Positions 7,047-49,138 of a stretch of DNA of 64,000 nt are shown here, piece by piece; position 1 is the first letter of the stretch, and every line of letters begins with the position of its first letter. Made by a program: the position numbers and the translations under genes. Source of the stretch: an uncultured Clostridia bacterium. Lineage in GTDB: Bacteria; Bacillota; Clostridia; Christensenellales; CAG-314. The notes beneath the pieces were generated by a model. The model saw only the letters and a program-made list of their open reading frames with translations, was not told the origin of the DNA and made no database searches. The stretch is from positions 1 to 64,000 of the forward strand of contig CANQPI010000003.1 of NCBI GenBank assembly GCA_947625725.1. Reading direction: 5' to 3'.

Positions 7047-7195
7047 TTGTCTGCAAGACGTCGTTTTTGTGCAAACTACCGAAATTTTGCGCATACTAAT
7101 TCGGTACAAAGCGATTTCGGACGGCATAAATGCCTTCATTCTTGAAATAACATTATAACAAACTTAAAAAAATCTTAATTTTTGGTTAAAATTAG

Positions 7196-7225
7196 TTGAC
7201 AGTAGGGGGGGGGGTAATGTATAGT
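7196..7225 (+). promoter_or_regulatory. Promoter with a G10 homopolymer in the spacer: TTGACA-agta-G10-taatg-TATAGT, 18-bp spacer
   Basis: TTGACA 7196-7201, G10 7205-7214, TATAGT 7220-7225. Confidence 0.7.
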
Positions 7226-7354: not shown

Positions 7355-10300
7355 ATGACAAAATTCCGTCTTAAAACTACAACAATGATCTTTGCGGCGT
7401 TGCTTTTGTCTGCGCTGTTGATTTGCGTGTTTGCCGCATGCGCGCCGCGCACAACGGATGAGGTACGCACGGTCACGTTTATGAACGGCGACGACGTCTA
7501 CGAAACGCAAACGGTCAAGTTGGGAGAAAAATACACTTTTCCGCAAAACGATCCCACGTTGGAACAACCCGATGACGATCATCTTTACAGTTTTCTCGGT
7601 TGGACGCTGGACCCCGACTTTTACGAATACCGTAGCGAATTGCTGACGGAGCCGGACTACGTGGTTTCGAATATCACCATTTACGCCGCGTACCGTTTGG
7701 TTGCGATCGACAGCACTCCCGGACAGGGCGCGGACTTGGTTTACAACGTAGAGTTCCGCATGCCGCGCGGCGAGGACTTCGGCGAGTGGTCGGGCAAAAC
7801 GCTCGAACAGTTCACTCAAAAGGAAGTTCACCGTTATTCGGACGCGGTATTGCCCGACGCCGAGTTGTTGCCCCAAATCGACGGCTATCACTTTACCGGC
7901 GAGTGGTCGGGCGGCAGTCTTACCAACGTTCGCGGAAACCGACGCGTTACCGCAGTGTACGAAAAGAACGTGTACAACTACACTTGGAACTATCTCGGGC
8001 AAACTTATACGCGCGAGTTGCCCTTCCGCACGCAGGTGGACTTGACGGAACATCCGCAGGTGGACGAGGCGTTTGTTTTCGACGGGTGGTACACCGACCC
8101 CGAATTCCGCACGCCAGCCACTCTCACCGAGATACCCGCGCAAGACGTTGAACTGTACGCCAAGTACCGCGTGGATTTCAGCACCGCAACGGTATCATAC
8201 GAAGGGTCGTTGGTTTACGGCGACATACGCAACAATTTGTATATCAGCGGACTCAAAGAGTGCGACGACCTTGTCTACACGTTTCAATGGACGGTGAACG
8301 ACGTTGTTGACGAACCGTCCGACGTCCGTTTCCGCGAAGTCAGGAACGCAGGCGACTACAACGTTGCCGTGCGTATTTTTGCCGTTTACAAGGGCGACGT
8401 TCTCCGCGACGAGGGTGACGCCACAACGGAGCAAGGCTCTGCGCAATTTGTCTACACTGTGGACAAGGCGACTTTGACGGCGGTGGTAACTCTGTCAAAA
8501 AATTCGATAGTCTACGGCGACGAGATCCCCGAGGCAACTATCGTATATGACGGTTTTGTGTTTGACGAAACCGCCGAGGGCGTGGGCGTAGGGCAGGACT
8601 TCCTTATCATGCGCGGCGAGCAAGATTGCACTGATACCAACTTGCACGTCGGCGCTTACCGTGTGGAAACGCGTCCTCGCGAACTGCCCAACTACAAGTT
8701 TGCCCAGATTGCCGCGCCTACGTTTGACGTGACGAAAAAGGACCTTACAGTTACCGCAACGGTAACAAGCAATGTTTACGGCGACGGGTTCGATTACCAA
8801 GTCGCTTTCGACGGGTTTGTCGAGGCGTACAACGACGACGAACAAGTCCTCGGCAGACATTGGTTTACGCTCGACGGCGACGGCGAGTACGTTTTCGGCG
8901 ACCGCATACACGCGGGCGAGTACAGCGCGCAACTGTGCGGTTACGCTTCCGACGACTACAACGTAATTTTGCCTGATGCGGTTACGTTTGGCGTGTCCAA
9001 ACGTCCCGCGAGCGCGCAAATTACTGCGGAGGGCGGCATTTACGGCGTTACGCCCGACGTTAGTTACAAACTCGGCAACGTTTTTGCGGAAGATGAAGAT
9101 AGATTTACGCCCGCCTATACATATACGAGCGGCGGCAATGCCTACAACGATATTTCCCGTTTCGTCGTGGGCAATTACAACGTAACCGCCACGTTTGAAG
9201 AACGCGGTTACTCCGACTATCAAACGGTAGCGGTCACGGGCGACGAGTTTGAAATTACAAAACGTCCTCTCAATGTCACCGTTGACGTACAATCGGTCTA
9301 CACTTACGGAGATACCGTTACCGCCAAAGCCGTTTACGAAAACAATTTTGCGTTTGACGAGGACGAAAATACCAACGGTTTGGTGCGCGGAGAAATCTCC
9401 TTTGTTTGGAAGAACGCCGAAGGCACAGAGTACCGTCGAAACAACTTCGAAGCGGGCAATTACAGCGTTGTCGCGCAAGGTGTATCCGCGTTGAATTATG
9501 AGTTCCGATTCCCCGCTACGCAATTCGTCGTCAATCGCAAAACACTTGTGTTAAAGGTGCATTTGCAAAGCGATTCGATTTTGTACGGCGAAACTCCGCG
9601 CGTTGCTACGGACAGCGGATATATCAACGGTATCGAGTACGTCGGATTTGCTTTTGACGAAACGGCTACAAGCGTGTTCGGTATTGCCAAACTTCCGCAA
9701 ATCACGTATCTTGACGCAGAGAATGAGGCAACTCAAAGTTTCCATGCGGGAACTTATACGGCAACTACTTCTGCCGAGAGCGCCAACTATGATATCGAAG
9801 TGGTGGCTCAATCCTTTACGGTCAATCGCCGCACGTTGTTTGTAAATGTGGAACTTTCTGCCCCAAGCCTGATCTACGGCAACAAACCCACGTCTACAAT
9901 CGTTTACGCCGCAGAAAACTACGACGGGTTCTTCGGCAACGAGAAAAACATATACGCTGCCGACGCTCACGTGGTGTATGGCGGCAATCAAACATACACG
10001 CAAGAACAACTTAACGGCACAGCCAAGATGTTGGCGGGCAAGTACGTTGTGACGGTGCAAGGTATTGACAAGGGTATAAATAAGGATTATCAAGTTACTT
10101 ATCAATATACAGTAGATAATTTAACATTCACGGTGGAGCGCGCCCCGATACAAATAACCGTTTCCGCCGCAAGCGATACCTACACCTACGGCGTAGATCC
10201 CGCGCTCACCGTTGCGGCCGACAAATTCGGCTACGGCGAAACCGCCCAAGAGTTGTTCGGCGAAAGTTGGGATACCGTTCTCTACACCAAGGACGACAAA

Positions 10301-13300
10301 CCCGCAACAATCGACGGGCATTTCGGCGCGGGCAAGTACCATGCAACGCTCAAAGATTTGTCAAACGACAACTATATTATCACGATTACGCCTTTCGACT
10401 TTACGGTAAACAAGGCGGATCTCACCGTCACGGTCAGCGCAGATGGCTTCAAGTACGGCGAGCAAGACTCGCCCGTTCCGACGTTGAAGTACCAAGGATT
10501 TGTTTTCGACGAGAACAGCGAAGATTTGAACGGCGTTGCTCGATACAGTTACGCCAAGGACAACGTTTTATATGAGGACAGCGTGTTCCATGCGGGCAAG
10601 TATGCCGTTACGGTCGCGGGCTACACGTCGGATAACTACGAAATAACTTACGTCGGCGGCGAATTTGACGTTCAAACGCGTCTAATAACCCTCACAATGG
10701 GCAACGGTTGGACGACTTATGCCCAAGACCCCGTTGCTTACAATTGGTATAGTATCGGCGGCGACGAGATTTTGGGCGGCGAAAGCAAAGAATTGACTTT
10801 CTCCGTCGCTATCACGCGCAACGGCGACAAATACGTGCAAGGTTCAAACAAGTATTTTCCGCACGGCGACTACGTTGTAACTGTTACTCACAGCGACAAC
10901 GGAGATTACACGGTTACGGGCGGCAACACTTTGACTTTTACCGTTGCCAAACTCACCTACAATCTCAACGTCAGCGGTGCAAAAAAGTGGGCGGAACGCG
11001 CAGATTGGTCGGCTACTCCTCGCATACCGGATAGCGCGGATCGTTTTACGCTCCAAGGTTCGATTGTACTCAATGACCCCGAATCCGTTTCTGCCGGCGA
11101 CCATAGCGACAACGAGATAGGCAAACAATTCGTTTGGAAAAACAACGAATATCACGTTTATGTCGGCGACGAGGACGTCACGGACAACTTCACATTCACC
11201 TACACGCTGTCCGTATCGCTCAGCAACTCCGATTTCGCCGTACAAAAGCCGGAAAATTTGACGTTCACTTTTGACGGTACTGTGCATACTTTTGCAGTCA
11301 CGGCAACTGCGGACGGCATTTCCGCCGACCAAATTACCATTACTTACGACTACGACGACAAGTACTCTCAGTCGCAGGTTTCTATCAGGGACGTTCGCGA
11401 GGATAACTACGTTGTGTACTACACCGTTCATGCGCAAAACGCCGAGGACGCCACGGGTAGTTTTACCGTAATTGTAAACAAAGCCGACATCAACGTTACC
11501 GCGCCGAGCAACATTACCAAAGACTACGACAAACAAGATGGTTTTGTCGCTCTCAAACAAGGAACAAACTTCTTCGGTGTGGAGGCGGACGACGAATTCA
11601 GCGCAACCGTAAAGTATAGCAAGGATAGCAAAGACTACGATCAAGACAGTTTGTCTATTGTCAACGTCAAAGACAGCGGCACAGTCAATTTCCTTGTGGA
11701 CGCGGGCGTCAACTATAACACTGCAACGGGCTTTTACGAAATTGCGATCAACAAGGCGACGGTGCGGCTTCCCGAAATAGAAAGCAAAACTTACAACGGC
11801 AACAAGCAAACTGCCGGTGTAGTCGCTACGGAATACTACGACGTCAGCGACGTAGGCGGTATCAACGCCGACACTTATCAAGTGGTGCTTGCGCTCAAAG
11901 ACGCCGACAACTACAAGTGGTCGGACGGCAACGAGGAGAAAACTCGCAAATTCGATTTCGTTATTGCAAGGGCGCAACTTACTCGCCCGACAGCGGATAA
12001 TGCGGTTTACGTCTACACGGCTGCGGAGCAAACCTACTCGCCCGATTTCGGCGAGCAGGAGGTTTCCCTGTTCAAAGTTGACAACAACGTCCAAACCAAT
12101 GCCGACAGTTACAATGTGACAGTCGCTATAACCGACAAAACCAACTACGAGTGGACGGACGGCAAACAGGACGACATAGAGTTTACGTTTGTAATAAACA
12201 AAGCCGATATCAACGTCACCGTACCCGACGACGTCACAGAGGACTTTAACAACACAAACCGCTTTGCCAAGGTCAGTGCTACGGGCGTAGAGGGCGACGA
12301 CGAGTTCGAACCCACCGTAACCTACGGCAGAAGCGACTCTTTGTGCGATCAACCTTCGCTAAACTTGACCAACGTTGCCGATAGCGGCGCCGTTTACTTC
12401 AAAGTAACTGCCGGCGACAACTACAACGAAGCGACGGGCAGTTACAATGTCCAAATCAATGTTGCAGAGCCCGATATCCAAGATGTGACGGACAATGCCG
12501 AGTACACATATCGAAGCGGCATTGTTTGCAAAACGCAACAGGATATTTACGCCGCGATAACGCAAAACGCTAAGAACCTTTACGGCGATCAGACGGTAGA
12601 GTATCAATTAAACGATGGAGATTTCTCTGCGACGTTGCCTGATATTATCAATGCAGGATCGTACACGATCAAAGCCAAGATTTTCGGTGATAACTACAAG
12701 GAAGTTACTAAAACTTACACATTTACGGTAAAACAGCGCGCGCTCACCATAAATGCGCCGTCGAATATTTCTCAAAAATACAACGGCGAAACTTGGAACA
12801 GCCAAATTACCGTGGACGGGTTGGATGTTGACGATATAAATACTATTGCCAAGGTCACTTACAGTTACAATTCCAACAATGCGTACATTGCCTATTCAAG
12901 CAACGTTGCGCCGAGTTTTACAAATGCAACGATTGGCGACCTCAATGTAACCGTATCGGTATCGTTGACCGACAACAACTATTCTCTTGGCGAAAACGGC
13001 AATTTCTCCGGCACTTATACAGTTAACATCAGCAAGGCAGAGTTGACAATTCCCAAGGCAAGCAAGGAATACACCTACGACGCCACCGAACAAAATTTCA
13101 AATTGGACGACAATTACGATCCGAGCCTTATGTCTATGAGCGGCGACGTCACAGGTAAGAATGCCCAAGAATACACCATGCAAGTGTCCCTTACCGAAGA
13201 TGCCAAGGTCAACTATGTATGGGCAGACAACACAAACGGAATTCAAAATGTATCGTTCGTCATCAACAGAGCAACACTTACTCGCCCGACAGAGGATAAT

Positions 13301-16300
13301 ACGGTTTACGTCTACACGGCTGCGGAGCAAACCTACTCGCCCGATTTCGGTGAGCAGGATGTCAATCTATTCGATATTGTAGGCAACGTCCGAATCGACG
13401 CCAACGAAGCGGGTCATGAAGTAACAGTTTCCATTCACGACAAAGTTAACTATGAGTGGATGGACAGTACGCAAGATGACGTTTCTTTCAGTTTTGTCAT
13501 ATTAAGAAAGACAATAAATGCTCCCAAAGCGGCAGGCATAACTTACACATACAACGGCGAAGAACAAGAGTTCAAGTTTGTTGAAGGCAGTTTCGATAGT
13601 TCTACAATGAAAGTCAGCAACAACAAACAACGTATCGCCAACGAAAAAGGTTATGTTGTGCAAGTTACTCTCAGCGATCCCGCCAACTACAAATGGCAAG
13701 ATGGTGCGGTTACGGAGTTTACCTTTGTCATTCTGCGCAAATCAGTAGAGAAACCCTCCACGCCCGCAGAAGTATATCGTTATACCGGCGCAAAACTGAC
13801 GTTTACTCCCACCAATTTTAACGCTAGTTATATGTCTATTTCCAACAACGTACAAACAGAGGTTGGCGAATATAACGTAATTGTCAATCTTAGCGATCTT
13901 GTAAACTATGTTTGGATTGACGGCACACAATATGCGGTAGGTTTGCAATTTGTAATCAACAAAGGTATTGCTCCCGCTCCTGCTCAACAAGACATCACGT
14001 TAGAAACAGAAGTGGGAATGTTCCTTAACATCAAGTTGGGCGATGTGGACTTGAATGTTTTGAAACCGGGTTACTATTGGGATTGGTCTAAAAACAACCA
14101 AGAAACGCCTGTTGTTTCCGGTAAAAACACGTTCAAAGCATATTACAACCCTGACGTCACAAGGTACGAAAACAGCACGGTGGAAGTCACGGTAACGTTC
14201 AACACCCGCAAAGAAAAAATCACCGTTTACACCGATAGCGTATTTGAGGGTGATTTCGGTATTTCGTCGGCCACCTTGTCAACCGACCAAATCAAGTCCT
14301 TCAACGCTTTCGGAGAAAACGGCAGAACATTTACCGAGGAAGAAATCAACTTTATCAAGGACAAGATCACCGTCAACGAAACTTCCGGCAATACCATAGT
14401 ATTCACTGTCGGCGGGACTTACATTGCAAAGTTCAGCATCGTTTTGGCAGAAAATGATTACTACGAGATTGACGGCGTTGCCGAGTTGAGTGCGGTATTC
14501 AAACTTAAATCAGTAGATGTCAACGGAAAACTCTACACAATAGAGGACGCGTTGCAAGTGGCAAACAGCGGTGATGTCGTCACCGTAAAACACCACACTG
14601 TTTTTGCAAGCGGGCAAGTTGCCGAAATCGCCGGTTATTCCGTTGCCAATGGCAACTATACCGTAAAGGAAGGCGTTAGGTTGTTCTTACCTTATGACGG
14701 AGTAAACGGCGAGCATGCCACAACGACGGCAATAACTTCCATTCTGGGTAATACCGCCCAAGAAACAAAATTTATGAAATTGGAACTTGCCTTGCCTGAG
14801 GGTGTTGTGCTTTTCAATGAGGGACAAATTACAATCGGTGGCACTACGACGGGCGGCGGCGGCGGAAACTCGACCGGCGCAGGTCAAACAAGCGGCGATT
14901 ACGCTCAAATAAAGTTGGGCAAAGATGCCGGTATCGAGAGTCGCGGAGATATACAAGCCTGGGGCTTCATCAAAGAAGAAACGCCCAACAACGGTTCGTT
15001 TGTTACCATGAACTCCGGCAACGCCTTTATTCCTTTTATTGTTATAGAACATCGCGGAGGCTCAAAGTTTAGCGGAATGTTGCCTTCGCTTACGACGGGC
15101 TCGCCGTTTAATCGCTTGTTTATGCAAAACATTACGGCAACTTTTACCGTAAACTATGGCGCAACCGTCACAGGTTTTGCAAACCTCTATGCTAAATCTC
15201 ACGACAATCAAACGGCAATCAATTTGATTGGCGGAAACTCCTCCTACTTGTTGAACGCGCAAAAGGGAACTTATGTGGTTGCAAAATATGATATTCAGAC
15301 CAAAGTTACCAATCTGAAAGTTTACGGCGGATTTGAATTCAACTCTATGTCCCTCAACGTTGCCGGTGTAGATATTTCTACGGAAAAAGTTTTGTTCCCG
15401 ATTTCATGGTATTGGCAAATCGAACTGTTCCCTTTGCAAGAAGGTGGTTCGGCAAATGTAGATATTACCAAACAAGGTATCAAGTTGTTGCCCGGTTCAT
15501 CTCTTACCATTGGCAAAGGTGTTACTGTTACCGCAAGCAGAATTGCCGTTTATGACGTATTTAACGACATAAATTATGCCGCAACACCGTATCAAAATGA
15601 TAATCACAATGACCCCGCAAGGCTTACGGTTAACGGAACTTTGAACGTAAAGGCAATCACGATAGATAAGCAGAGTGTTTGTGGACTCGGCGGAGCGGTT
15701 TACACGGAAGAAGACGGCGCTGTTTTGAACGTTGCCACTGCATCCGTCGATAGTTACGAAATCAATGAAAGCGGGAGATGGATCAAGACAAACTATCAAC
15801 TACAACTAAAATTGATAACGGGTGGTGTTGTGGACTCCGACTTTACGGCGTTAGGCGCAGGTACGTATGAATCGGAAAAAGGCGGTTGGAAAAATGCCGA
15901 TACATCAACGCAGTACGGCATCGATTATCAATATGTCTTTGTAAATGACACTGTCGGCGGAGAAAAAGACATTCAGAACGTCAACCCCGCCACCTACACA
16001 TTGGCAGCCGACGTAATTTTGAAAAATGCAACGTTGGACGGTTGGGTATTCCTTGGTTGGTTCAGCGACGTTTCTTGCAACGAGGAGTATCGCTTGGATA
16101 CCATTCAAGCAACGTGGCGCTCCGACGTGACAGTTTATGGATTGTTCAAGCAAGTAAATTCGTTTGTGTTCAATTACACAACAAACGACGACGCAATCAG
16201 TATCGAATCCGATACGGTTCTTGATTCCGAGTTGGATTCCTTCGACCTTGCAGACGAGCATTTCAGTGAAATAGGCGTCTACGATGATGACCCCACACAA

Positions 16301-17410
16301 ACAAAATACTTTGACGGATGGTATTTGGACAATACGTATGATACCCCTTACTCTGTTGAGGCTGTCCGCGCTAAAGGCATGGGTGTTAATACTCCTATCA
16401 CATTGTATGCAAAATGGGGAACAAAGTCTAAACTTAATGTTAAAATAACAGAAGTTGATGTAACAATAAACAGTGTAAAGTATTCAAGCGATACAACATT
16501 GTATTTCAAAGCGGGGAAAGTTATCTCAATTATTTTGACGCCACAAGACAGCGCTTTGTCAAACGGTTCAATTAAAAGCGTGGAAATAGTCGGAACTGAA
16601 TATTCTGGTTCATTCACTGACAGGCAAGGAAGTTACTCGTTCACGATGCCCGACCAAAATGTAACCGCAACTATAAAGGGTAAGGCTGGTGGTTTTTGTA
16701 TCGTTGAGGGTACACTTATTACCCTTGCAGACGGAACGCAAAAGAAGGTTGAGGACTTGTTGCCCGCCGACAAAGTGCTTGTGTTCAACCATTATACGGG
16801 TAAGTATGAGGCGTGCGAGTTGTGGTCTAATATTCATGCCGGTAATGAAGCGGCTTGGTACGTGATCACATATCTCTACTTCTCAGACGGCACGAAGTTG
16901 GGTATCACCTACGAACACGGCTTGTTTGACAAGACGCTTAACAAGTATGTCTACTTCAATAGCGACAATGCGAATGAGTTTATTGGTCACAAATTTGTAA
17001 AAGTCGGCAACGTCAATGGTCAATTTGTCAGTGGCGAAGTTACGTTGTTAGGCTGGGAAAACGTTACGGAATACGTAAGGGTTTATTCTCCCACATCTGT
17101 ATTTATCATGGATATCGTAACGAACGACCTGTTGTCTATAACTGCTTGGCCGACAAACAGTGACGGATTTACCAACATCTTCGCTTATGACGATAACATG
17201 AAGATAAATAGTGAGGCAATGCAAGCGGATATCGAACAATTTGATTTGTACACCTATGAGGATTTCAAAGGCCTCATGGATGAAACCGTGTTTAACGCCT
17301 TGCCTTGGAAATATCTCAAAGTTGCCGTTGGCAAAGGACAAATTACATGGGAAGAAATTTTGTACACGATAGATTGGATCTATACGCAAGGACAAATTCA
17401 ACTCAACTAA
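7355..17410 (+). CDS. Giant (~3351 aa) MBG/InlB-repeat surface lipoprotein with C-terminal Hint domain
   Basis: Start at 7355 after cggagg; lipobox-like LLICVFAACAPR; InlB-type GW repeats; many MBG-type units (e.g. VNKADLTVTVSADGFKYGE...YQGFVFDE); Hint-like GGFCIVEGTLITLADGTQKKVEDL and GITYEHGLFD. Confidence 0.85.
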   Translation: MTKFRLKTTTMIFAALLLSALLICVFAACAPRTTDEVRTVTFMNGDDVYETQTVKLGEKYTFPQNDPTLEQPDDDHLYSFLGWTLDPDFYEYRSELLTEPDYVVSNITIYAAYRLVAIDSTPGQGADLVYNVEFRMPRGEDFGEWSGKTLEQFTQKEVHRYSDAVLPDAELLPQIDGYHFTGEWSGGSLTNVRGNRRVTAVYEKNVYNYTWNYLGQTYTRELPFRTQVDLTEHPQVDEAFVFDGWYTDPEFRTPATLTEIPAQDVELYAKYRVDFSTATVSYEGSLVYGDIRNNLYISGLKECDDLVYTFQWTVNDVVDEPSDVRFREVRNAGDYNVAVRIFAVYKGDVLRDEGDATTEQGSAQFVYTVDKATLTAVVTLSKNSIVYGDEIPEATIVYDGFVFDETAEGVGVGQDFLIMRGEQDCTDTNLHVGAYRVETRPRELPNYKFAQIAAPTFDVTKKDLTVTATVTSNVYGDGFDYQVAFDGFVEAYNDDEQVLGRHWFTLDGDGEYVFGDRIHAGEYSAQLCGYASDDYNVILPDAVTFGVSKRPASAQITAEGGIYGVTPDVSYKLGNVFAEDEDRFTPAYTYTSGGNAYNDISRFVVGNYNVTATFEERGYSDYQTVAVTGDEFEITKRPLNVTVDVQSVYTYGDTVTAKAVYENNFAFDEDENTNGLVRGEISFVWKNAEGTEYRRNNFEAGNYSVVAQGVSALNYEFRFPATQFVVNRKTLVLKVHLQSDSILYGETPRVATDSGYINGIEYVGFAFDETATSVFGIAKLPQITYLDAENEATQSFHAGTYTATTSAESANYDIEVVAQSFTVNRRTLFVNVELSAPSLIYGNKPTSTIVYAAENYDGFFGNEKNIYAADAHVVYGGNQTYTQEQLNGTAKMLAGKYVVTVQGIDKGINKDYQVTYQYTVDNLTFTVERAPIQITVSAASDTYTYGVDPALTVAADKFGYGETAQELFGESWDTVLYTKDDKPATIDGHFGAGKYHATLKDLSNDNYIITITPFDFTVNKADLTVTVSADGFKYGEQDSPVPTLKYQGFVFDENSEDLNGVARYSYAKDNVLYEDSVFHAGKYAVTVAGYTSDNYEITYVGGEFDVQTRLITLTMGNGWTTYAQDPVAYNWYSIGGDEILGGESKELTFSVAITRNGDKYVQGSNKYFPHGDYVVTVTHSDNGDYTVTGGNTLTFTVAKLTYNLNVSGAKKWAERADWSATPRIPDSADRFTLQGSIVLNDPESVSAGDHSDNEIGKQFVWKNNEYHVYVGDEDVTDNFTFTYTLSVSLSNSDFAVQKPENLTFTFDGTVHTFAVTATADGISADQITITYDYDDKYSQSQVSIRDVREDNYVVYYTVHAQNAEDATGSFTVIVNKADINVTAPSNITKDYDKQDGFVALKQGTNFFGVEADDEFSATVKYSKDSKDYDQDSLSIVNVKDSGTVNFLVDAGVNYNTATGFYEIAINKATVRLPEIESKTYNGNKQTAGVVATEYYDVSDVGGINADTYQVVLALKDADNYKWSDGNEEKTRKFDFVIARAQLTRPTADNAVYVYTAAEQTYSPDFGEQEVSLFKVDNNVQTNADSYNVTVAITDKTNYEWTDGKQDDIEFTFVINKADINVTVPDDVTEDFNNTNRFAKVSATGVEGDDEFEPTVTYGRSDSLCDQPSLNLTNVADSGAVYFKVTAGDNYNEATGSYNVQINVAEPDIQDVTDNAEYTYRSGIVCKTQQDIYAAITQNAKNLYGDQTVEYQLNDGDFSATLPDIINAGSYTIKAKIFGDNYKEVTKTYTFTVKQRALTINAPSNISQKYNGETWNSQITVDGLDVDDINTIAKVTYSYNSNNAYIAYSSNVAPSFTNATIGDLNVTVSVSLTDNNYSLGENGNFSGTYTVNISKAELTIPKASKEYTYDATEQNFKLDDNYDPSLMSMSGDVTGKNAQEYTMQVSLTEDAKVNYVWADNTNGIQNVSFVINRATLTRPTEDNTVYVYTAAEQTYSPDFGEQDVNLFDIVGNVRIDANEAGHEVTVSIHDKVNYEWMDSTQDDVSFSFVILRKTINAPKAAGITYTYNGEEQEFKFVEGSFDSSTMKVSNNKQRIANEKGYVVQVTLSDPANYKWQDGAVTEFTFVILRKSVEKPSTPAEVYRYTGAKLTFTPTNFNASYMSISNNVQTEVGEYNVIVNLSDLVNYVWIDGTQYAVGLQFVINKGIAPAPAQQDITLETEVGMFLNIKLGDVDLNVLKPGYYWDWSKNNQETPVVSGKNTFKAYYNPDVTRYENSTVEVTVTFNTRKEKITVYTDSVFEGDFGISSATLSTDQIKSFNAFGENGRTFTEEEINFIKDKITVNETSGNTIVFTVGGTYIAKFSIVLAENDYYEIDGVAELSAVFKLKSVDVNGKLYTIEDALQVANSGDVVTVKHHTVFASGQVAEIAGYSVANGNYTVKEGVRLFLPYDGVNGEHATTTAITSILGNTAQETKFMKLELALPEGVVLFNEGQITIGGTTTGGGGGNSTGAGQTSGDYAQIKLGKDAGIESRGDIQAWGFIKEETPNNGSFVTMNSGNAFIPFIVIEHRGGSKFSGMLPSLTTGSPFNRLFMQNITATFTVNYGATVTGFANLYAKSHDNQTAINLIGGNSSYLLNAQKGTYVVAKYDIQTKVTNLKVYGGFEFNSMSLNVAGVDISTEKVLFPISWYWQIELFPLQEGGSANVDITKQGIKLLPGSSLTIGKGVTVTASRIAVYDVFNDINYAATPYQNDNHNDPARLTVNGTLNVKAITIDKQSVCGLGGAVYTEEDGAVLNVATASVDSYEINESGRWIKTNYQLQLKLITGGVVDSDFTALGAGTYESEKGGWKNADTSTQYGIDYQYVFVNDTVGGEKDIQNVNPATYTLAADVILKNATLDGWVFLGWFSDVSCNEEYRLDTIQATWRSDVTVYGLFKQVNSFVFNYTTNDDAISIESDTVLDSELDSFDLADEHFSEIGVYDDDPTQTKYFDGWYLDNTYDTPYSVEAVRAKGMGVNTPITLYAKWGTKSKLNVKITEVDVTINSVKYSSDTTLYFKAGKVISIILTPQDSALSNGSIKSVEIVGTEYSGSFTDRQGSYSFTMPDQNVTATIKGKAGGFCIVEGTLITLADGTQKKVEDLLPADKVLVFNHYTGKYEACELWSNIHAGNEAAWYVITYLYFSDGTKLGITYEHGLFDKTLNKYVYFNSDNANEFIGHKFVKVGNVNGQFVSGEVTLLGWENVTEYVRVYSPTSVFIMDIVTNDLLSITAWPTNSDGFTNIFAYDDNMKINSEAMQADIEQFDLYTYEDFKGLMDETVFNALPWKYLKVAVGKGQITWEEILYTIDWIYTQGQIQLN
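11978..13363 (+). repeat. Pair of ~86-bp near-identical direct repeats inside the giant lipoprotein gene (11978-12063 and 13277-13362)
   Basis: 49-bp perfect core at 12003-12051 and 13302-13350; five mismatches across the flanks. Confidence 0.85.
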
Positions 17411-17450
17411 CATAACACAACAAATCTAACCCCTACGGAGGATAACTAAC

Positions 17451-18953
17451 GTGAATTTTCAACTTTTGGCAATGACGGGCAAGATGATAGCAATATTGGT
17501 GCTGTTGCTTGTCATTGTGGCAGTGCAACTGTGCAGCGTGGGATTTTTGATCTACGCCAACGCAAAAAACTCAAAGCGTCGTCGCAACAGAACCTCTCGC
17601 GTCGGCGATAACGACGGCGATACGGACAGTGACGATCGCGATACGGCGCAAGAGGGCTCGATCCAAGCCGATTCCGATCCAACTGTCGTCGCTTTGGCGA
17701 GTGAAAACGGCGAAACGGCGCAAGAGGACTCTGACGAGCCCGCTCCCGATCGCGACGAACCGCTTGCGACGGAAGAAAACTCGTCCGAGCCCGACGAACC
17801 CGAATTCACCGACGAGCAGGTAGAGGCAATGTTGGACGAATTTGACGACGCGTCCTCGCCCGAAACCGAAGTCGCCGACAATGGCGACGACGACGGCGAA
17901 CCGACGGAAGAACCCGCCCCGACGTCCGACGAGGACAACTCGCCCGAAACCGATTCCGACGACGAAGCGCGCGCTTTTGCCGATCAAATAGAGCAAAATC
18001 TTGCCGCCCTAACCGACTCCTCGGACGAGGCGGCAACCGACCTCGCCGAGCAGGAACAACCCCAAGAGGAAACGGCTGACGCCGAAGAAGAGTACGTCGA
18101 ATCCACTGCGGAAACGGTAGAAGAAATTCTGGAAGAACACGGACTTACCAGCGAGGACGAAATCACCGAAGAAATCGCCGAGGAAATAATGGCGGTGCAT
18201 ACCGCGCACGACGAAACGGCGGTCGAAGTCGTATCCGTAAACGGTTTGTACAAAAAATACTCCAAGAAAGCCGATTGGGCAATAGCAAACGTCAATTTCC
18301 ACTGTTACGAGGGCGAGATAGTCGGTTTGCTCGGTCACAACGGCGCGGGCAAATCCACAACGCTCAAATGCTTGGAGGGAATGTTGCCTTTTGACGAGGG
18401 TACAATTTCCATCTACGGCAAAGATATTGTCAAAGACCCTCTCGCCGCCAAGGCAAACATGGGGTTTGTTACAGACAATCACGCTGTTTTCGTCAAAATG
18501 ACGGGCAAACAGTACCTTGCTTTTATGGCGGACGTTTACGGCGTACCCACCGAGGTGCGCAAGGAACGTATTGCCAAGTTGGAAGAAGTGTTTCAGTTGG
18601 GAAGCGCGATTAACAACCTTATCAGCAGTTATTCTCACGGAATGCGGCAAAAAATTTGTATGATGGGTAGTCTTATGCACCAACCCAAGTTGTGGGTGTT
18701 GGACGAGCCTATGACGGGTCTTGACCCGCGAACAATGCATGCCGTACAGCAATTTATGCGCGAGTATGCCGACGCAGGCAACTGTATCGTATTTTCCTCC
18801 CATGCGCTCATTACCGTAGCAAAGATGTGCGACCGCGTGGTGTTGTTGCGTACGGGCAATCAGTTGGACGAACTCAACATCAAGCGTATCATGACGGTTG
18901 ACCCGACATTCGACTTTGAGGAGTACTTCTTGAAACATGAAAGACAAGATTAA
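17451..18953 (+). CDS. ABC transporter ATP-binding protein with N-terminal TM anchor and long acidic linker
   Basis: N-terminal hydrophobic helix; D/E-rich ~200-aa region; Walker A GLLGHNGAGKSTT, signature YSHGMRQK, Walker B LWVLDEPMTGLDPRT; GTG start after acggagg. Confidence 0.88.
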   Translation: MNFQLLAMTGKMIAILVLLLVIVAVQLCSVGFLIYANAKNSKRRRNRTSRVGDNDGDTDSDDRDTAQEGSIQADSDPTVVALASENGETAQEDSDEPAPDRDEPLATEENSSEPDEPEFTDEQVEAMLDEFDDASSPETEVADNGDDDGEPTEEPAPTSDEDNSPETDSDDEARAFADQIEQNLAALTDSSDEAATDLAEQEQPQEETADAEEEYVESTAETVEEILEEHGLTSEDEITEEIAEEIMAVHTAHDETAVEVVSVNGLYKKYSKKADWAIANVNFHCYEGEIVGLLGHNGAGKSTTLKCLEGMLPFDEGTISIYGKDIVKDPLAAKANMGFVTDNHAVFVKMTGKQYLAFMADVYGVPTEVRKERIAKLEEVFQLGSAINNLISSYSHGMRQKICMMGSLMHQPKLWVLDEPMTGLDPRTMHAVQQFMREYADAGNCIVFSSHALITVAKMCDRVVLLRTGNQLDELNIKRIMTVDPTFDFEEYFLKHERQD

Positions 18954-20625
18954 TTTCAAGCGTGTGGCAACGATCCTGCGCAAGCAGACGCAGGAACGCA
19001 CCTCCGCTTTCAAAAAAGGAAACTTCGACGGGTTTGGATTTGTCATAAGGATAACGCTTGTGGCAGTGTTTCTTGCCGTATTCGTCGTGTTTTTCGGCAG
19101 GTTCACCAATATCTACCTCTCCGTCAAAACCGACGGCATGTTGCAACAGCAAACCCGTTTGCACGAACTTTATACGCTCGTGTACACCGTCATATTGTTG
19201 TTTTTGGTCGTAGGCGGCGTGGGACAAATCGATCGTCAACTGTTCGAAGCCGACGATATGAAACTGCTAGTCGGCATGCCTCTCGGCGCAGGCACGGTGT
19301 TTGTGGCAAAACTTATCACTATCTACTGCGAACAACTCCTAATTTCCATTGCCTGCGTATTGGCAGTCAACGTTACGGTAGCCATGCAGACGTCGCAGAC
19401 AACGGCTTTCTATCTGTTGACGGTATTGTTTTGCTTTGTTCTGCCGTTGATATCCATTGCGCTGTCGGCGTTGATAGCAATGCCCTACCACGCGACAAAA
19501 CAATTTCTCAAAAATCGCTTTGTCTTGCACTTTATCGTTGTGACGTTGCTCACCGCGGCGTTGGTGTACGTGTATTCGTCCATACTGAATGCCGTTCGTG
19601 ACATGTTGTTGGGCGACTCGCTCAAATTTTTCTTCAACGAACAAGTGATGAACTTTTTGCAACGGCTTTGCGTCTACCTGTATCCTGCCGTTTGGTTTGC
19701 GGACATTTTGATGAACGAAAATTTGCTCTTTGCAAGTTTGGGACTGACGGGCATTATCGTGATAAGTTTGGTGGTGGCAATGCTGGTCATTCACAAACTT
19801 ATGCTTTGGGTAATGCAATCACGTATCGCCGGCGACGTAAACTTTATTCGTCGCGATCGCGAGATCTCCCCGAAAAGGCATCCCTTCCTTGCGCTGATGA
19901 AAAAGGACTTTTTGCTCATTTTCCGCACCCCATCCTACACTTTCAGTTATTTCAGCGTAGGTGTGTTGATGCCGCTTATGGTGTACTTCTGCATGACGGT
20001 CGGTTCTTCCATTGTGGAAAAACTTATCGGTTTGAGTTGTAACCTCGAATTGGCGATTTTCCTGACTTTGATGTTCGGCGCGCTTACAAACGTATTTTGT
20101 TCCACAAACATAAGTCGCGACGGCGAAATGTTCTTTTCCGTCAAGGCATATCCGTTGAGTTACAAGCAGGTGTTTTTCAGCAAAGTAGTGTTGTGCATGT
20201 TGGTGGCGACGGTTTCGCAATTGATCTCCGCAGTGTTGCTTGCCGCTTTCGGCTACGTCAAGTGGTGGCAGGCGTTGTTCATTCTGCTGGGCGGATTGCT
20301 TTGCAGTTTTGCGCAAATTTGTTTCGCCACGCGTTACGACTTTAACCACGCCAAGTTCTCCACCGAGGAGGACGGCGAGATCAAGGAATCGGGCAACACG
20401 ATTTCCGTAATTATCGTGTTGGGCATGTTGTCCTCGTTCGTTATCGGCGGCAGCGTGCTTGTAATGCGTTTGCTGTTTGCGCTTCGCCTTGTTGCGGGGT
20501 TGGAATTTTTGACCTACCTCATTGTGGGAGGCGTTTCGGCGTTGATAGCGGCGTTGAGTTTGATATATCTGACGCGCAGGCTCGGAACAAAATATCGCGA
20601 GTTCAGCGGAGGAGGCAACCTATGA
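18937..20625 (+). CDS. ABC transporter permease (multi-TM)
   Basis: Multiple hydrophobic segments; overlaps and follows the ATPase gene. Confidence 0.78.
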   Translation: MKDKINFKRVATILRKQTQERTSAFKKGNFDGFGFVIRITLVAVFLAVFVVFFGRFTNIYLSVKTDGMLQQQTRLHELYTLVYTVILLFLVVGGVGQIDRQLFEADDMKLLVGMPLGAGTVFVAKLITIYCEQLLISIACVLAVNVTVAMQTSQTTAFYLLTVLFCFVLPLISIALSALIAMPYHATKQFLKNRFVLHFIVVTLLTAALVYVYSSILNAVRDMLLGDSLKFFFNEQVMNFLQRLCVYLYPAVWFADILMNENLLFASLGLTGIIVISLVVAMLVIHKLMLWVMQSRIAGDVNFIRRDREISPKRHPFLALMKKDFLLIFRTPSYTFSYFSVGVLMPLMVYFCMTVGSSIVEKLIGLSCNLELAIFLTLMFGALTNVFCSTNISRDGEMFFSVKAYPLSYKQVFFSKVVLCMLVATVSQLISAVLLAAFGYVKWWQALFILLGGLLCSFAQICFATRYDFNHAKFSTEEDGEIKESGNTISVIIVLGMLSSFVIGGSVLVMRLLFALRLVAGLEFLTYLIVGGVSALIAALSLIYLTRRLGTKYREFSGGGNL

Positions 20626-23600
20626 GAAAAAATATCATTGCGCTTATGTTGGTGTTGCCCATTTTGTTCGTGCTTGTTGTGTACGGAGCGGTCAACGTGT
20701 CCAGTTTGGATGTGGATATTTCCGCAAGCGGAATCGAGATCATGGAGCGTTACCCCAACGATACGATCAGTATCGATCTTGCCGACTACGACGACAGTTA
20801 CGAAATAACCCCCGTGGTTACTCCCAACAACGCGACCAACTCCGAGTTCGAGTATCGCTACGAACTTATCAGCGGTTCCGCAACGCAGGAGGACGCCGCA
20901 AACGGCGAGGTCGTGCAAGTAAAACGCGCCGAGAAAAAGGGCGAATCGGACAAGATAATTGCCAAGGGCGTGGGTACCGTCAGAGTCGTCGCCGTAAGCA
21001 AAGACGGCGGCTACGAGGACAGCATTACCGTCATTGTGGGATCGTCCAAACCCTACGCGTTTGATTTTTCGATGTACAACGACGGCAACGCCAAACAAAA
21101 TTTGTTGGAAAACTCCGACGACGGCTATCGAGCCACCCTTTCGACCGGCAGTTACGGCTTTGACGTCAAACTCAAACCCAACACGCACATCAGTCCCGAG
21201 TTCCGCATTTCCGACGGATTTGCCGTGGCTGACCCCGCGCGCGGCAGCGTCACGCTACCCTTTACCGGCAACGTCGAATTTGACGTCAGAATCCCCAACG
21301 GCGTCAAGGGAGATTTGACGCGACACGTCAAGTTGAACGTGACAAATTCTTCTCTTACGGGCGACAACTTTTCCGTCAACGGCAGTACGGACAACAATCC
21401 CGCCGTCAGTTTCGACAGGGAATCGCGTTCGGCTGAGTTCTACATCGAGTCCGTTTTGACTCCGCAAGTAAATTGCTACGACGACGGCGTGCAAATAGAA
21501 GCGATCGAAAAAGTAGACGGCGTGCAAAACGGTTGGCGCGTCGTGGCGTCCGTAGACGACGACGTGGAGATTTTCGACGGCGACGAATTTGCGTTTTTTG
21601 TCAAGGTAGGCTCGACGGAGCGCACCGTGACGGTCAAGGCGGTGGAGTTCGACTTCACCATCCGCACGGACGTACCCAATTTCAACATAGATAACGGCAC
21701 AAACATTTTGTTGGGTACGCAAATTTCTTTCTATGCCAACCCGATCGAAGTGGCGTCGGGAGTTACCTACAAATGGGATTTTATCAACGTCGAGGACATG
21801 GCTTCGTTGGAAACGACCTACAACGACGACAAATCGGTCTGCACGTTGACGGCTCACGAACGCGACAAGTTCATCATAGTCGTAGAGGCCTGGCGCAACG
21901 GCGAACCGATACCCAATATCGACGCCAAAGAGGTGGAGGTCGAGGTGATAAACAACGTGGTGGGCGCAACAAGCGTCGATACCAACGTGGGCTTGGCAAA
22001 GAGCCTTGCCGTACCGGGGTTGAAGTACGACAACGGACAAAAAGTTGACAATCTCTATCCGATTCCCATCAATGCGCACAGCCCGTTTGGAGCGTTGTCC
22101 GACGGAATTTACGACTTTGACTACACCGTCAGCGACGCAAGCAAAGCGCGTATCGCAACAAACGAACAGGGCATTTTGGTGGACGAAACCAACAGTTGTA
22201 TCTTTTTGGAGATACTCGGCAAGGGTTCGATCACCGTGACCGCCGCGTGGAAAGGCAATGCGGATTGGCGTGATGACGACCCCTACGAGTTGACGATACC
22301 GCTGACCGTAGACAGCGAGGCGGTAGAAGTTACGACGAGCAAGCAGTTGTTTGACGAAACGGAAGCGGGCAATCCCATCGTGCTTGGCAACGACATCATG
22401 CTCGGCGCATACGACAACGGCGAGGCGTTGCCCCTCGAACAACGTTTGCAGATGGTCAAGACAATGAAGTCCACCTACAACACCCGCTTCTACGAGGACA
22501 CGGGTCGCGCCGCCGACGCATACGTCAACTATGTCGTCGAGTTCAAAAACGACGTTTACGGCAACGGACACTCCGTTTGCGGCGAGTACTTTGCGCATGC
22601 GGTGGACGGCAACGACGTTCCTCAAATATTCAAAGGTCCGTTGTTCCTTGTGGCTATGGGCGATCTTGCCAGCGTCGCCGCGCAGGACAATATCGTATTT
22701 TTATGCCGTACCGACGGCGTAACGATTCACAACGCCACACTGCTCGGTTGCAGCGACAGTTCGCGCACAAATCCCGACACGGGCAAGGACGATCTTACGC
22801 GCTTGGACTACACGGGTACCGTGTTGGAGATCAACGCCGACGTAAATCTTCTCAATTGCCGCGTTCGCAACGGGCGCAACGTGGTGCGCGTTTACGGCGG
22901 CAACAGAAACGGCGAAAACTATTTCGTAAACGCTTTGCCGCAAAGCACCGTAACTTCGCAAGACAGGGCTGTGGTGCGCATAGAGGGTTGCATTCTCTCG
23001 CACAGCAGGGAATTTGTACTCAAATTGGGCGCTAACCGCGCGTTGCGTTCAACGAGCAGCGAGCGCGAACCCTATTTCACCGACCGTAGCGGCAACCGTT
23101 ATCCTTCTCAGGCGGACGCTCATATCGACGACAACTATTTCTATCAAACGTATGTGCTTACGGACGTGACGTTGGCGGATTGCGTTTTGGAAAAGAGCGG
23201 TTTGTTCTGCATAGGCGTGGAAAGCAATTTCGCGGGCGAAATGCTTTGCCCCAACAACAGGTTTGCAAGCGACGAGGATTACGGACAACTGCTCGGCGGT
23301 TGGTCGCGCGTGGGAGGCACGTCCTTTGCGGCAATGCTCCGTTTGAAAGGGAACGTTCGTATGTACGATTGGAAAAACCTCGACAACGTCAACAGCGACA
23401 CGCTCATCAGATCCGACGGCGGTTTGCCCATCAAGTTGGACATAGCCTCGATGATAAACTACATGAGCGCTTCGCGCCCCGACGAAGTAGGACCCGTTGT
23501 GGAAACGGACGGCAACGACAAGTACGTACACGGCGGCATAGCCCTCTACGGCGGGGGACGAAATTACTCGCAAATAGACATGTCCGAGTTGAGCGACGAC

Positions 23601-23804
23601 CGCAAGCAAGGACTAAGACAGTTCAACATCAACATTTCCGAGTTGACCGACGCCGACGGAGATATGGGCGGTATCGGGCAGTATCTGCCTCTTGCCGCGG
23701 GAACGCAGGATTTCCGTTTCTTCATGTACGACCGCGACGGGTCCAACAATCGCGCTTGGCAGGACCAACCCGATTACAATGTTGCGCCGTTGTCTTTTCA
23801 ATAA
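20622..23804 (+). CDS. 1060-aa membrane-anchored extracellular protein of unknown function
   Basis: N-terminal TM (MRKNIIALMLVLPILFVLVVYGAVNV), Asp/Asn-rich extracellular-type composition; ATGA overlap with the permease. Confidence 0.75.
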   Translation: MRKNIIALMLVLPILFVLVVYGAVNVSSLDVDISASGIEIMERYPNDTISIDLADYDDSYEITPVVTPNNATNSEFEYRYELISGSATQEDAANGEVVQVKRAEKKGESDKIIAKGVGTVRVVAVSKDGGYEDSITVIVGSSKPYAFDFSMYNDGNAKQNLLENSDDGYRATLSTGSYGFDVKLKPNTHISPEFRISDGFAVADPARGSVTLPFTGNVEFDVRIPNGVKGDLTRHVKLNVTNSSLTGDNFSVNGSTDNNPAVSFDRESRSAEFYIESVLTPQVNCYDDGVQIEAIEKVDGVQNGWRVVASVDDDVEIFDGDEFAFFVKVGSTERTVTVKAVEFDFTIRTDVPNFNIDNGTNILLGTQISFYANPIEVASGVTYKWDFINVEDMASLETTYNDDKSVCTLTAHERDKFIIVVEAWRNGEPIPNIDAKEVEVEVINNVVGATSVDTNVGLAKSLAVPGLKYDNGQKVDNLYPIPINAHSPFGALSDGIYDFDYTVSDASKARIATNEQGILVDETNSCIFLEILGKGSITVTAAWKGNADWRDDDPYELTIPLTVDSEAVEVTTSKQLFDETEAGNPIVLGNDIMLGAYDNGEALPLEQRLQMVKTMKSTYNTRFYEDTGRAADAYVNYVVEFKNDVYGNGHSVCGEYFAHAVDGNDVPQIFKGPLFLVAMGDLASVAAQDNIVFLCRTDGVTIHNATLLGCSDSSRTNPDTGKDDLTRLDYTGTVLEINADVNLLNCRVRNGRNVVRVYGGNRNGENYFVNALPQSTVTSQDRAVVRIEGCILSHSREFVLKLGANRALRSTSSEREPYFTDRSGNRYPSQADAHIDDNYFYQTYVLTDVTLADCVLEKSGLFCIGVESNFAGEMLCPNNRFASDEDYGQLLGGWSRVGGTSFAAMLRLKGNVRMYDWKNLDNVNSDTLIRSDGGLPIKLDIASMINYMSASRPDEVGPVVETDGNDKYVHGGIALYGGGRNYSQIDMSELSDDRKQGLRQFNINISELTDADGDMGGIGQYLPLAAGTQDFRFFMYDRDGSNNRAWQDQPDYNVAPLSFQ

Positions 23805-23805
23805 T

Positions 23806-23852
23806 TTGCCGAAACAAAACAAGGTTTCCCGACGGAAACCTTGTTTCGGCTC
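23806..23852 (+). terminator. Strong hairpin after the ABC/surface operon
   Basis: AAACAAGGTTTCC-CGAC-GGAAACCTTGTTT 13-bp perfect stem just after the stop; no T-tract. Confidence 0.55.
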
Positions 23853-23927
23853 TATGTCAAATGTTGGGACGAATAAAAAACAGAAAAAAATATAAAATGT
23901 TTCGCCCCCAACGTTTGCCATAAGAGC

Positions 23928-23951
23928 CTACCGACCAAACGCAAGTCGGTT
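23928..23951. repeat. Dispersed repeat copy A: CTACCGACCAAACGCAAGTCGGTT
   Basis: Identical 24-mer at 46977-47000, with weaker upstream similarity. Confidence 0.75.
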
Positions 23952-24500
23952 CGTTCGACTATGCGACCGACCCCTACGGGGCGCAAGTGCGCCGACTTGG
24001 TCGGACTGCTAAGGAAGTCGCTACACGCGCCTTCTCTGATTTGAATTTGGTGGGGAGTTGCAACCCCACCAACCCCCGCAAGGGCTGCAATCTCGGTACA
24101 CGCCCTCGTCGTAGCCCTCGTTAAGTAGCACCAACCGCACAAGCGCGGTCGGAACCGCTACCACTCGGCTACTCCTCTCCCACCCAAGTCTATTGGACTT
24201 GTGTGGGTACCCATTTTTGCAGACGGGATTTGAGTTTTGTCCGCTTGTGCGTTGTGTCCACACGCCCTGCGCTCACCCAAATCCCTATTTAATTAAAATT
24301 TTATATGCAGAAACAAATTGACAACTGCATTAGTAGTCGTACCTTTATTACTTGGCTACGTCCCCATTGTTGCAGAGTGAGTTGGGAACATCTGTTTCTT
24401 TGTTTTTGTTTACTCCCACATCTCAATATTTATTTTATTCTTATAAAAACCTTTTTTTGTGCCGACGGGCGCGGGCGCGATCGTTTTATCGGCGTACCGC

Positions 24501-46901: not shown

Positions 46902-46976
46902 GTGGTTATGAATATTGGGTTGAATGAAAATCAAAAAAACATAAATTTGTTGCGCCGCAACATTTGCCGTCGAAAT

Positions 46977-47000
46977 CTACCGACCAAACGCAAGTCGGTT
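46977..47000. repeat. Dispersed repeat copy B: CTACCGACCAAACGCAAGTCGGTT
   Basis: Identical to 23928-23951. Confidence 0.75.
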
Positions 47001-47021
47001 TGTGCAACCAATGTTTCGCTT

Positions 47022-47564
47022 TTATCGATTTTCTTTGAGTTCCACCGTGTACAACGGGCGGTAACTGACTTTGCCGTGATCAAACACGCTTTCAAACAGC
47101 GTCACTTTGTTTGCCGCAAAGGGCGCGTTGAACACTTGAACGTTTTTCGTCACTTCGGAAAAAGGCATAACAAAGTTTTTTTTGCGAATTATCGTTACGT
47201 GCGGACGGTAGGCGCGATGTTCCGTTTCGAATCCGTTTTGCTCCAACTTGTCGCCCAACAGGTCGTGGAGCGAGGTCAATTCGTCGCTTTGTCGTATCTT
47301 TGCCCACACTATATCGCCCGTGCGTTGCATGGCAAATTGAGTAACGGCAAGTTCGGGCGCGGGCAAATCTTTTATCGCGTCCATCGCGCTTTGTACGTAA
47401 ATCAAGTCGGACGGCTCTACGTTTCCGAGAAAGTGCAATGTCAGGTGCATATTTTCTTTCGGCACAAAATTTCCGCCGTCGGCGTATTCCGCAAACTGCC
47501 GCGACGAGCGTTCCAAATTGTCTTTTGCCCTGTCGGGCAACTCCAACGCAACAAATACTCGCAT
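47022..47564 (-). CDS. thpR: RNA 2',3'-cyclic phosphodiesterase (2'-5' RNA ligase family)
   Basis: MRVFVALELPD; two HxTx motifs, HLTLHFLG and HVTIIRK. Confidence 0.9.
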   Translation of the reverse strand: MRVFVALELPDRAKDNLERSSRQFAEYADGGNFVPKENMHLTLHFLGNVEPSDLIYVQSAMDAIKDLPAPELAVTQFAMQRTGDIVWAKIRQSDELTSLHDLLGDKLEQNGFETEHRAYRPHVTIIRKKNFVMPFSEVTKNVQVFNAPFAANKVTLFESVFDHGKVSYRPLYTVELKENR

Positions 47565-47672
47565 AATTTCACCTCGCTGACGTCATTATACCACATTGCG
47601 GGCGCATTTTTGCTGTTTTTGAGCAAATTTTTTGTATTATCTGCGAATTTTCGGAGCAAATTCGAAAATACC

Positions 47673-47703
47673 TTGACGGTTGGGGGGGGGGCTATGTTAA
47701 AAT
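47673..47703 (+). promoter_or_regulatory. Promoter with a G10 homopolymer in the spacer: TTGACG...G10...TAAAAT, 19-bp spacer
   Basis: TTGACG 47673-47678, G10 47682-47691, TAAAAT 47698-47703. Confidence 0.65.
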
Positions 47704-47743
47704 AGATACACCGTTCGGCAAGAACACAAACAAGGAGAATTAT

Positions 47744-49138
47744 ATGCAGAAAAAAAATTACAATGCGGTATTGATTATACTTGCAGTCGTAGTATTGGCA
47801 TGCGGAGCGACGCTTGTCGCTTGTACGTCCGATAAACATGTCATCAATTTCGTTGCAGACGGCGTTACAGTGAAATCTGTCGAATTTAAGGCGGGCAGTA
47901 CCTCCGTCGCCGAGCCGCAAGTGCCTTCGAAAGAGGGTTATAACGGCAGTTGGCAGCAATATACGCTAGGTACCGCCGACATCACGGTCAATGCCGTTTA
48001 CACTCCCATTGAATATACGATATCTTTCTTCAATGTTGAGAACGCCGTCAATGAAAATCCATCAACGTACAATGTTGAAACGGGTTTGTTGACGTTGCAA
48101 CCCGCAGTCAAGCAAGGATTTAATTTTGACGGTTGGTTTTCCAATGAAGATTGCGCCGAAACTCACCGCGTCACCGAGATAGCGGCAGGTTCTGTCGGCG
48201 ATGTAGAGTTGTGGGCTAGTTGGACGCAACTGCCCTATACACTTTCTTCGGACGGCAAAACGATAGATTTCGGCAGTTATCCGCAAACGCTTGTAAAAGA
48301 CGCCGCGCTTGAATCTATGCTCAATGCGGAAATCGGCAACGCCCGTCCCTCTGCGGAGGACGCCGCAGGTTGGACGGACTACGGTTTTTATTGGAAAAAT
48401 CAAGTGGAAAGTTACACTTGGTACTTGGACAAGGAGTACAATGGCGAGCGTTATCGCGCGGTGTACTTTACCAAATACCGCGGGCGTACCACTTCCGTCC
48501 AAGATGATCACCCCGCCAGTGGCGAACAAAGCGGCAATGGCTATCAAAAGGAAACCGTTTATTGGTTCAAGTGGGAGCCGATCTCTTGGCAGGTGTTGGA
48601 AAAATCCGATACGGAGGCTTTTGTCATCTCTTGGTTGGTGTTGGATGCCACTCATTACTATCATTCGACAACCGCCGACGGTGCGCACAAACTCAATAAC
48701 TACATGTCGAGCGATATACGCACTTGGCTCAACAACGAATTTTACAATGCGGCTTTCCAATCTGTCAAACCGTATGTCAAATTGACCGAAGTGGACAACA
48801 GTGCCGCAACTACCAGCCTCAGCGGCAACCCGAACTTTTGCGAAAACACCAATGACTACGTGTTTTTGCCAAGTTACCAAGATGTAAAAGACGGTGGCAA
48901 GTACGGCTTTACCAAAGATTCGCGTAAACGCGAGTACAGCGACTATGCCGCCTGCATGGGACTTTCCTGCGACACTCAATACGGTTGGTGGTGGACGCGT
49001 TCGCCGAATTTCGGTTTTGACAGGTTGGTAAATGTCGTGCGTACCACCGGTACGATCGAAACGGGTTCAAATCAAGGAACGGTTAATATTGTGGACTATG
49101 GCGTTATGCCGGAAATCAACATAATTTTAGCAAAGTGA
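47744..49138 (+). CDS. Lipoprotein with InlB-type repeats and DUF6273-like C-terminal domain
   Basis: Lipobox LACGATLVACTSD; FDGWFSNEDCAE; ISWQVLEKSDTEAFVISWLVLDA...TWLNNEFYNAAF...YGWWWTRSP. Confidence 0.82.
   Translation: MQKKNYNAVLIILAVVVLACGATLVACTSDKHVINFVADGVTVKSVEFKAGSTSVAEPQVPSKEGYNGSWQQYTLGTADITVNAVYTPIEYTISFFNVENAVNENPSTYNVETGLLTLQPAVKQGFNFDGWFSNEDCAETHRVTEIAAGSVGDVELWASWTQLPYTLSSDGKTIDFGSYPQTLVKDAALESMLNAEIGNARPSAEDAAGWTDYGFYWKNQVESYTWYLDKEYNGERYRAVYFTKYRGRTTSVQDDHPASGEQSGNGYQKETVYWFKWEPISWQVLEKSDTEAFVISWLVLDATHYYHSTTADGAHKLNNYMSSDIRTWLNNEFYNAAFQSVKPYVKLTEVDNSAATTSLSGNPNFCENTNDYVFLPSYQDVKDGGKYGFTKDSRKREYSDYAACMGLSCDTQYGWWWTRSPNFGFDRLVNVVRTTGTIETGSNQGTVNIVDYGVMPEINIILAK

Follow-up and report, generated by a model that had tools for sequence, protein, structure and literature searches.

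A G10 tract separates the −35 and −10 hexamers of a promoter at 7196-7225 in the 64,000-nt stretch of Clostridia DNA analysed here (the window), and a comparison with the rest of the genome and its relatives makes it probable, at roughly 0.8, that this is a phase-variable housekeeping-sigma promoter that is driven by slippage, controls the genes at 7355-23804 and belongs to a genus-wide repertoire. The reading is strongly supported by the repertoire itself, by a spacing that is conserved while the tract position is free and by surface-protein targets, and it is also supported by G9/G10 orthologs and by one-G differences in paralogs and overlapping contig ends. The original prediction of switching through spacer slippage thereby receives strong comparative support, except for its 17-bp optimum and its Hint label, which are not supported. 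In the proposed mechanism, replication slippage in the G10 tract would gain or lose single Gs, each one-G change would shift the −35/−10 spacing in 1-bp steps from the 18 bp of the assembly, and the changed spacing would alter transcription of an operon encoding a giant lipoprotein, an ABC ATPase and membrane partners. The promoter comprises the following elements.

7160..7195, + strand: A/T-rich, UP-element-like stretch abutting the −35 upstream (sequence read directly, function putative)
7196-7201, + strand: −35 hexamer TTGACA (6/6 consensus, direct reading and promoter scan)
7202-7204, + strand: gta between the −35 and the tract (direct reading)
7205-7214, + strand: G10 tract inside the spacer, proposed slippage site (direct reading, run counts)
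7215-7219, + strand: taatg between the tract and the −10 (direct reading)
7220-7225, + strand: −10 hexamer TATAGT (5/6 consensus, spacing 18 bp)

Direct reading and a promoter scan agree in placing the homopolymer tract between the two hexamers, with 11/12 consensus matches and an 18-bp spacer, and a genome-wide pattern search for TTGACA-N3..5-G8-N5..8-TATAGT returned this single match. The coordinates predicted for TTGACA, G10 and TATAGT with an 18-bp spacer match with the exception of one letter: in the "agta" placed before the tract, gta is right, whereas the leading a already belongs to the −35 as its final letter. Downstream lie four closely spaced genes and a possible transcript end.

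7355..17410, + strand: giant lipoprotein, 3351 aa, lipobox ...FAAC (by eye), MBG_2 and Listeria-Bacteroides repeats (Pfam)
17451..18953, + strand: ABC transporter ATPase, 500 aa, with an N-terminal membrane segment (DrrA/GldA-like, under curated cut-offs)
18937..20625, + strand: polytopic membrane protein, 562 aa (hydrophobic segments)
20622..23804, + strand: exported or membrane-anchored protein, 1060 aa
23806..23852, + strand: strong inverted repeat 3′ of the last gene, possible transcript end (sequence reading; weak)

The close spacing attributed to these genes was confirmed, with a gap of 40 bp followed by overlaps of 17 bp and 4 bp, and a promoter scan of 17300-24400 found 2 sites, below the 5 obtained from shuffles. 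All four genes are likely to be switched together, with co-transcription that we infer from this arrangement. The 562-aa membrane protein is probably the permease partner of the ABC ATPase, and no family match was obtained for it or for the 1060-aa protein. The inverted repeat is weak as a transcript end because a T run is absent behind it. The Hint domain ascribed to the giant lipoprotein was not found, Pfam giving the two repeat families listed above.

In the window, no G run is longer than 5 except for two of length 10. In 374 kb of DNA from the same genome, 177 G/C runs of 5, 7 of 6 and 0 of 7 were followed by 5 of 8, 10 of 9, 20 of 10 and 2 of 11; this DNA was taken around G8+ tracts, so that the background can be judged fairly only from runs of at most 7. 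Long G/C runs in this genome are a separate population centred on 10; geometric extrapolation from the short runs gives ~6 runs of at least 8 and ~0.2 runs of at least 10 for the whole 1.68 Mb. A pattern search located 37 G8+ tracts genome-wide, 13 of them with a perfect TTGACA 2-12 bp ahead (binomial chance P about 1e-24), and one further tract sits behind TTGACG (47682), bringing the genome to about 14 G-tract promoters. A TATAAT-like −10 adjoins the tract in most of these, at spacings of 14-20 bp, mostly 18-19.

Four of the promoters (L047, L060, L062 and L064, on contigs C10, C30, C33 and C38 of this genome, G000) are near-identical G10 copies that include the start of a Cys/His-repeat lipoprotein; their upstream DNA diverges and the contigs break nearby. 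Other G8+ tracts, for example at C1:39688 and C2:62390, lack the promoter arrangement and were left out of the comparison, and G9 tracts also occur within long reading frames (L036, G000:C2:5713; L034, G000:C1:128792), one of them early in a lipoprotein gene, where translational phase variation is possible. MutS_I was found in this genome and in nearly all genus genomes; loss of MutS as the cause of hypermutable tracts was therefore ruled out, and the tracts are not left unrepaired in that way.

An alternative is chance or an assembly artefact, with a G run lengthened by sequencing error that fell by accident within promoter-like sequence: poly-G is a known problem of Illumina sequencing (PMC9187656), and promoter-like sites in this stretch are near shuffle level (2 found vs 1.1 expected). 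Against such a chance or assembly artefact stand the association of 13/37 tracts with TTGACA, the recurrence of the same device in independent assemblies of many species and its retention in a syntenic ortholog, which make it very improbable here and refute it for the repertoire as a whole.

The promoter behind TTGACG lies in the window itself.

47673..47703, + strand: promoter TTGACG-gtt-G10-ctatgt-TAAAAT, spacing 19 bp, G10 at 47682-47691
47744..49138, + strand: 464-aa lipoprotein downstream of this promoter, Listeria-Bacteroides repeats and DUF6273

Its G10 overlaps the 3′ end of an upstream ORF (46902-47705), for which a family match was not found. The target of the 7196-7225 promoter is likewise a lipoprotein, i.e. 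a surface gene, and across the genome the first gene is a lipoprotein in 9/10 callable cases vs 9/157 background ORFs, while across the genus 48/80 first genes are exported vs 26/157 background ORFs, ratios to be taken as approximate, since some of the background ORFs are spurious and signals were called by a simple home-made rule. The remaining 32/80 genus first genes, including an apparent aldolase, carry no visible export signal. In a wider species scan, 84/110 callable first genes among the matches listed look exported, and the G-tract promoter on contig C39 (G000) leads to a large secreted protein.

TTGACA-N3..12-G8 is present in 19/25 genus genomes, with raw counts of up to 26 per genome in which a single tract may count several times, and the reversed control pattern occurred in 1 genus genome only. 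A phylum-wide draw gave matches in 20/399 genomes, mostly one each, and the device is therefore concentrated in particular lineages. With one genome per species, the strict form ending in TATAAT was found in at least 117 stretches; the matches listed come mostly from gut Bacilli and Clostridia and also from Saccharibacteria, Spirochaetes, Selenomonadaceae and Streptobacillus, in a scan that took in the genus genomes G017, G008 and G012 (as L078, L143 and L106, recognised by their identical match positions). The genome of Streptobacillus notomytis (G081; L093, L163) had 50 raw pattern matches, more than every other genome searched, and a search of the accessible literature for phase variation in Streptobacillus found nothing relevant.

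In 88 genus promoters, whose tracts begin 2-10 bp after the −35, we compared spacing with tract position by tallying every −10-like hexamer according to its distance. Where the tract starts at least 9 bp behind the −35, the −10 adjoins it in 46/46 promoters; with a start at 2-4 bp the −10 tends to be displaced downstream, and 13/16 of these promoters still have one at 16-20 bp. Overall, 82/88 promoters keep a −10-like hexamer within this range. The 7196-7225 promoter, with gta ahead of its tract and taatg behind, belongs to the class with a short distance between −35 and tract. If the tract were a binding site, its place within the promoter should be fixed, whereas a spacing device should hold the total constant; on these sequences a spacing device is the better fit.

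The main competing explanation holds that the G tract, as a G-tract or "AC-Gn" motif, serves a regulator or sigma contacts as a binding site or structural element, and that its length plays no part in switching. Some features of the tracts do point that way: G is nearly always on the non-template strand, poly-C equivalents being almost absent in the genus; AC directly precedes the tract in 43/78 relatives (L190-L267) at any distance from the −35, and C does so in 83/124 species-scan loci among the matches listed; and a single total of 18 bp dominates in the genus. The G-only orientation and the preceding AC are unpredicted by spacing alone. However, the tract moves freely while total spacing is kept, its length varies from 8 to 15 across promoters, the AC context is a minority in the genome studied here and near-identical copies differ by one G, and we regard this explanation as unlikely.

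The total spacing itself departs from that of ordinary promoters. Among ordinary TTGACA/TATAAT pairs of the same DNA, 17 bp is the most frequent spacing (23/43), whereas G-tract promoters sit at 15-16 and 18-20 bp and only 8/144 of them have 17 bp (Fisher P about 1e-12), a comparison slightly biased by the 20-bp upper limit of the pattern and one in which our own genus is simply dominated by 18. The avoidance persists with one promoter per genome (median P 2e-5); when tract lengths were permuted between promoters, 17 cases were predicted at 17 bp vs 6 seen (P 0.0006). The proposal that loss of one G would give an optimal 17 bp thus finds no support, and the 18 bp at 7196-7225 may itself be the active length; the porA promoter of Neisseria meningitidis is reportedly strongest at 18 bp. 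The avoidance can be read in two ways: either the majority of the sampled cells are away from the optimum, or 18-19 bp is optimal for a G-rich spacer.

More tentatively, and with a fairly low probability, the promoters may form a widespread, dedicated class of G-tract switches in gut-associated bacteria, spanning Clostridia, Bacilli, Saccharibacteria, Spirochaetes and Streptobacillus. The strict non-template G, the preferred C or AC and the 17-bp avoidance would then point to a mechanism beyond simple spacing, in which the tract might, for example, affect sigma contacts or DNA twist and most sampled cells would be in a non-optimal state.

Returning to slippage within the spacer, tract lengths differ at several levels of relatedness. 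The syntenic ortholog in G007 (L185), a different species with 59% identity over the first 800 aa, carries TTGACA-agt-G9 amid diverged flanks, compared with G10 here. In the G002 ortholog (57% identity) the promoter is an ordinary, tract-free one of TTGAAA-17-TATGAT-like form, and switching is therefore non-essential. Paralogs within single genomes differ by one G in G012 (G9/G10, downstream DNA 98% identical) and in G074 (G10/G9, 96% identity over 150 bp). In G078, a metagenome-assembled genome from the species scan that to current knowledge lies outside this genus, two contigs cover one locus with an overlap of about 110 bp, and G12/G11 is the sole difference. Contig C39 of our own genome (L065, L066; 11142 bp) has a 76-bp exact end overlap at its promoter G tract with an extra G at the start (G11/G10); the contig may be a circular element, or two tract lengths may have split one locus, and it encodes a giant secreted protein. 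Contig ends also carry several genus promoters, L205, L234, L235, L243 and L263 among them. The contig-end differences and the promoters at contig ends fit mixed lengths in the sample, with poly-G sequencing errors as a possible cause instead.

These differences also bear on the proposal that the tract adjusts promoter strength on an evolutionary timescale and is fixed within each species, with no switching inside a population. The G9 and G10 orthologs are indeed from different species, and G10 is common to the four copies on C10, C30, C33 and C38. Yet two lengths appear in the overlapping contig ends of single assemblies and recent paralogs in one genome differ. Pure, uninterrupted G10 runs are, like long homopolymers in general, expected to be unstable, which also weighs against fixation, and we consider such tuning quite improbable.

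In Neisseria meningitidis, a poly-G tract lies between the −35 and −10 of porA, and one G gained or lost changes transcription, according to the review passages that cite the original work (van der Ende 1995, cited in PMC5084427, PMC5320596 and PMC3899988). Both systems place a poly-G tract in the promoter spacer of a surface protein; as those passages describe it, porA is one gene of a Gram-negative pathogen with experimental demonstration, whereas here about 14 promoters of gut Clostridia are supported by comparative evidence. The fetA promoter of Neisseria gonorrhoeae resembles ours in having a homopolymer between −35 and −10 that alters spacing and expression (PMC5320596), but the homopolymer is poly-C, a version almost absent in this genus. 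In another gut Gram-positive, Bifidobacterium breve, G-tract slippage in pilus operons was measured in error-corrected reads, and the authors mention unexplored other G tracts in promoter spacers (PMC9187656); the tracts in those operons are intragenic and act by frameshift, in contrast to the promoter tract described here. Invertible promoters likewise allow gut commensals to turn surface functions on and off reversibly (PMC11868660), as is proposed here. They depend on site-specific recombination between inverted repeats, whereas none is involved in the present promoters. Taking these comparisons together, the 7196-7225 promoter is probably a new member of the porA/fetA kind of spacer switch, with the function proposed here predicted from sequence.

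To our knowledge, slippage-switched promoter spacers have been described mostly at single loci of pathogens. Our literature search, with subscription papers mostly outside its reach, found no earlier report of such a repertoire in uncultured gut Clostridia. With about 14 such promoters per genome, mostly driving exported proteins, a single population would contain cells that differ in the set of surface proteins they display. If this is true of a lipoprotein-directed repertoire that recurs across species, much of the surface of these commensals would be set stochastically. Tract lengths in metagenomes are then predicted to be mixed and to go with expression of the downstream lipoproteins, and the genus-wide repertoire suggests a general route to surface variation in these gut bacteria.
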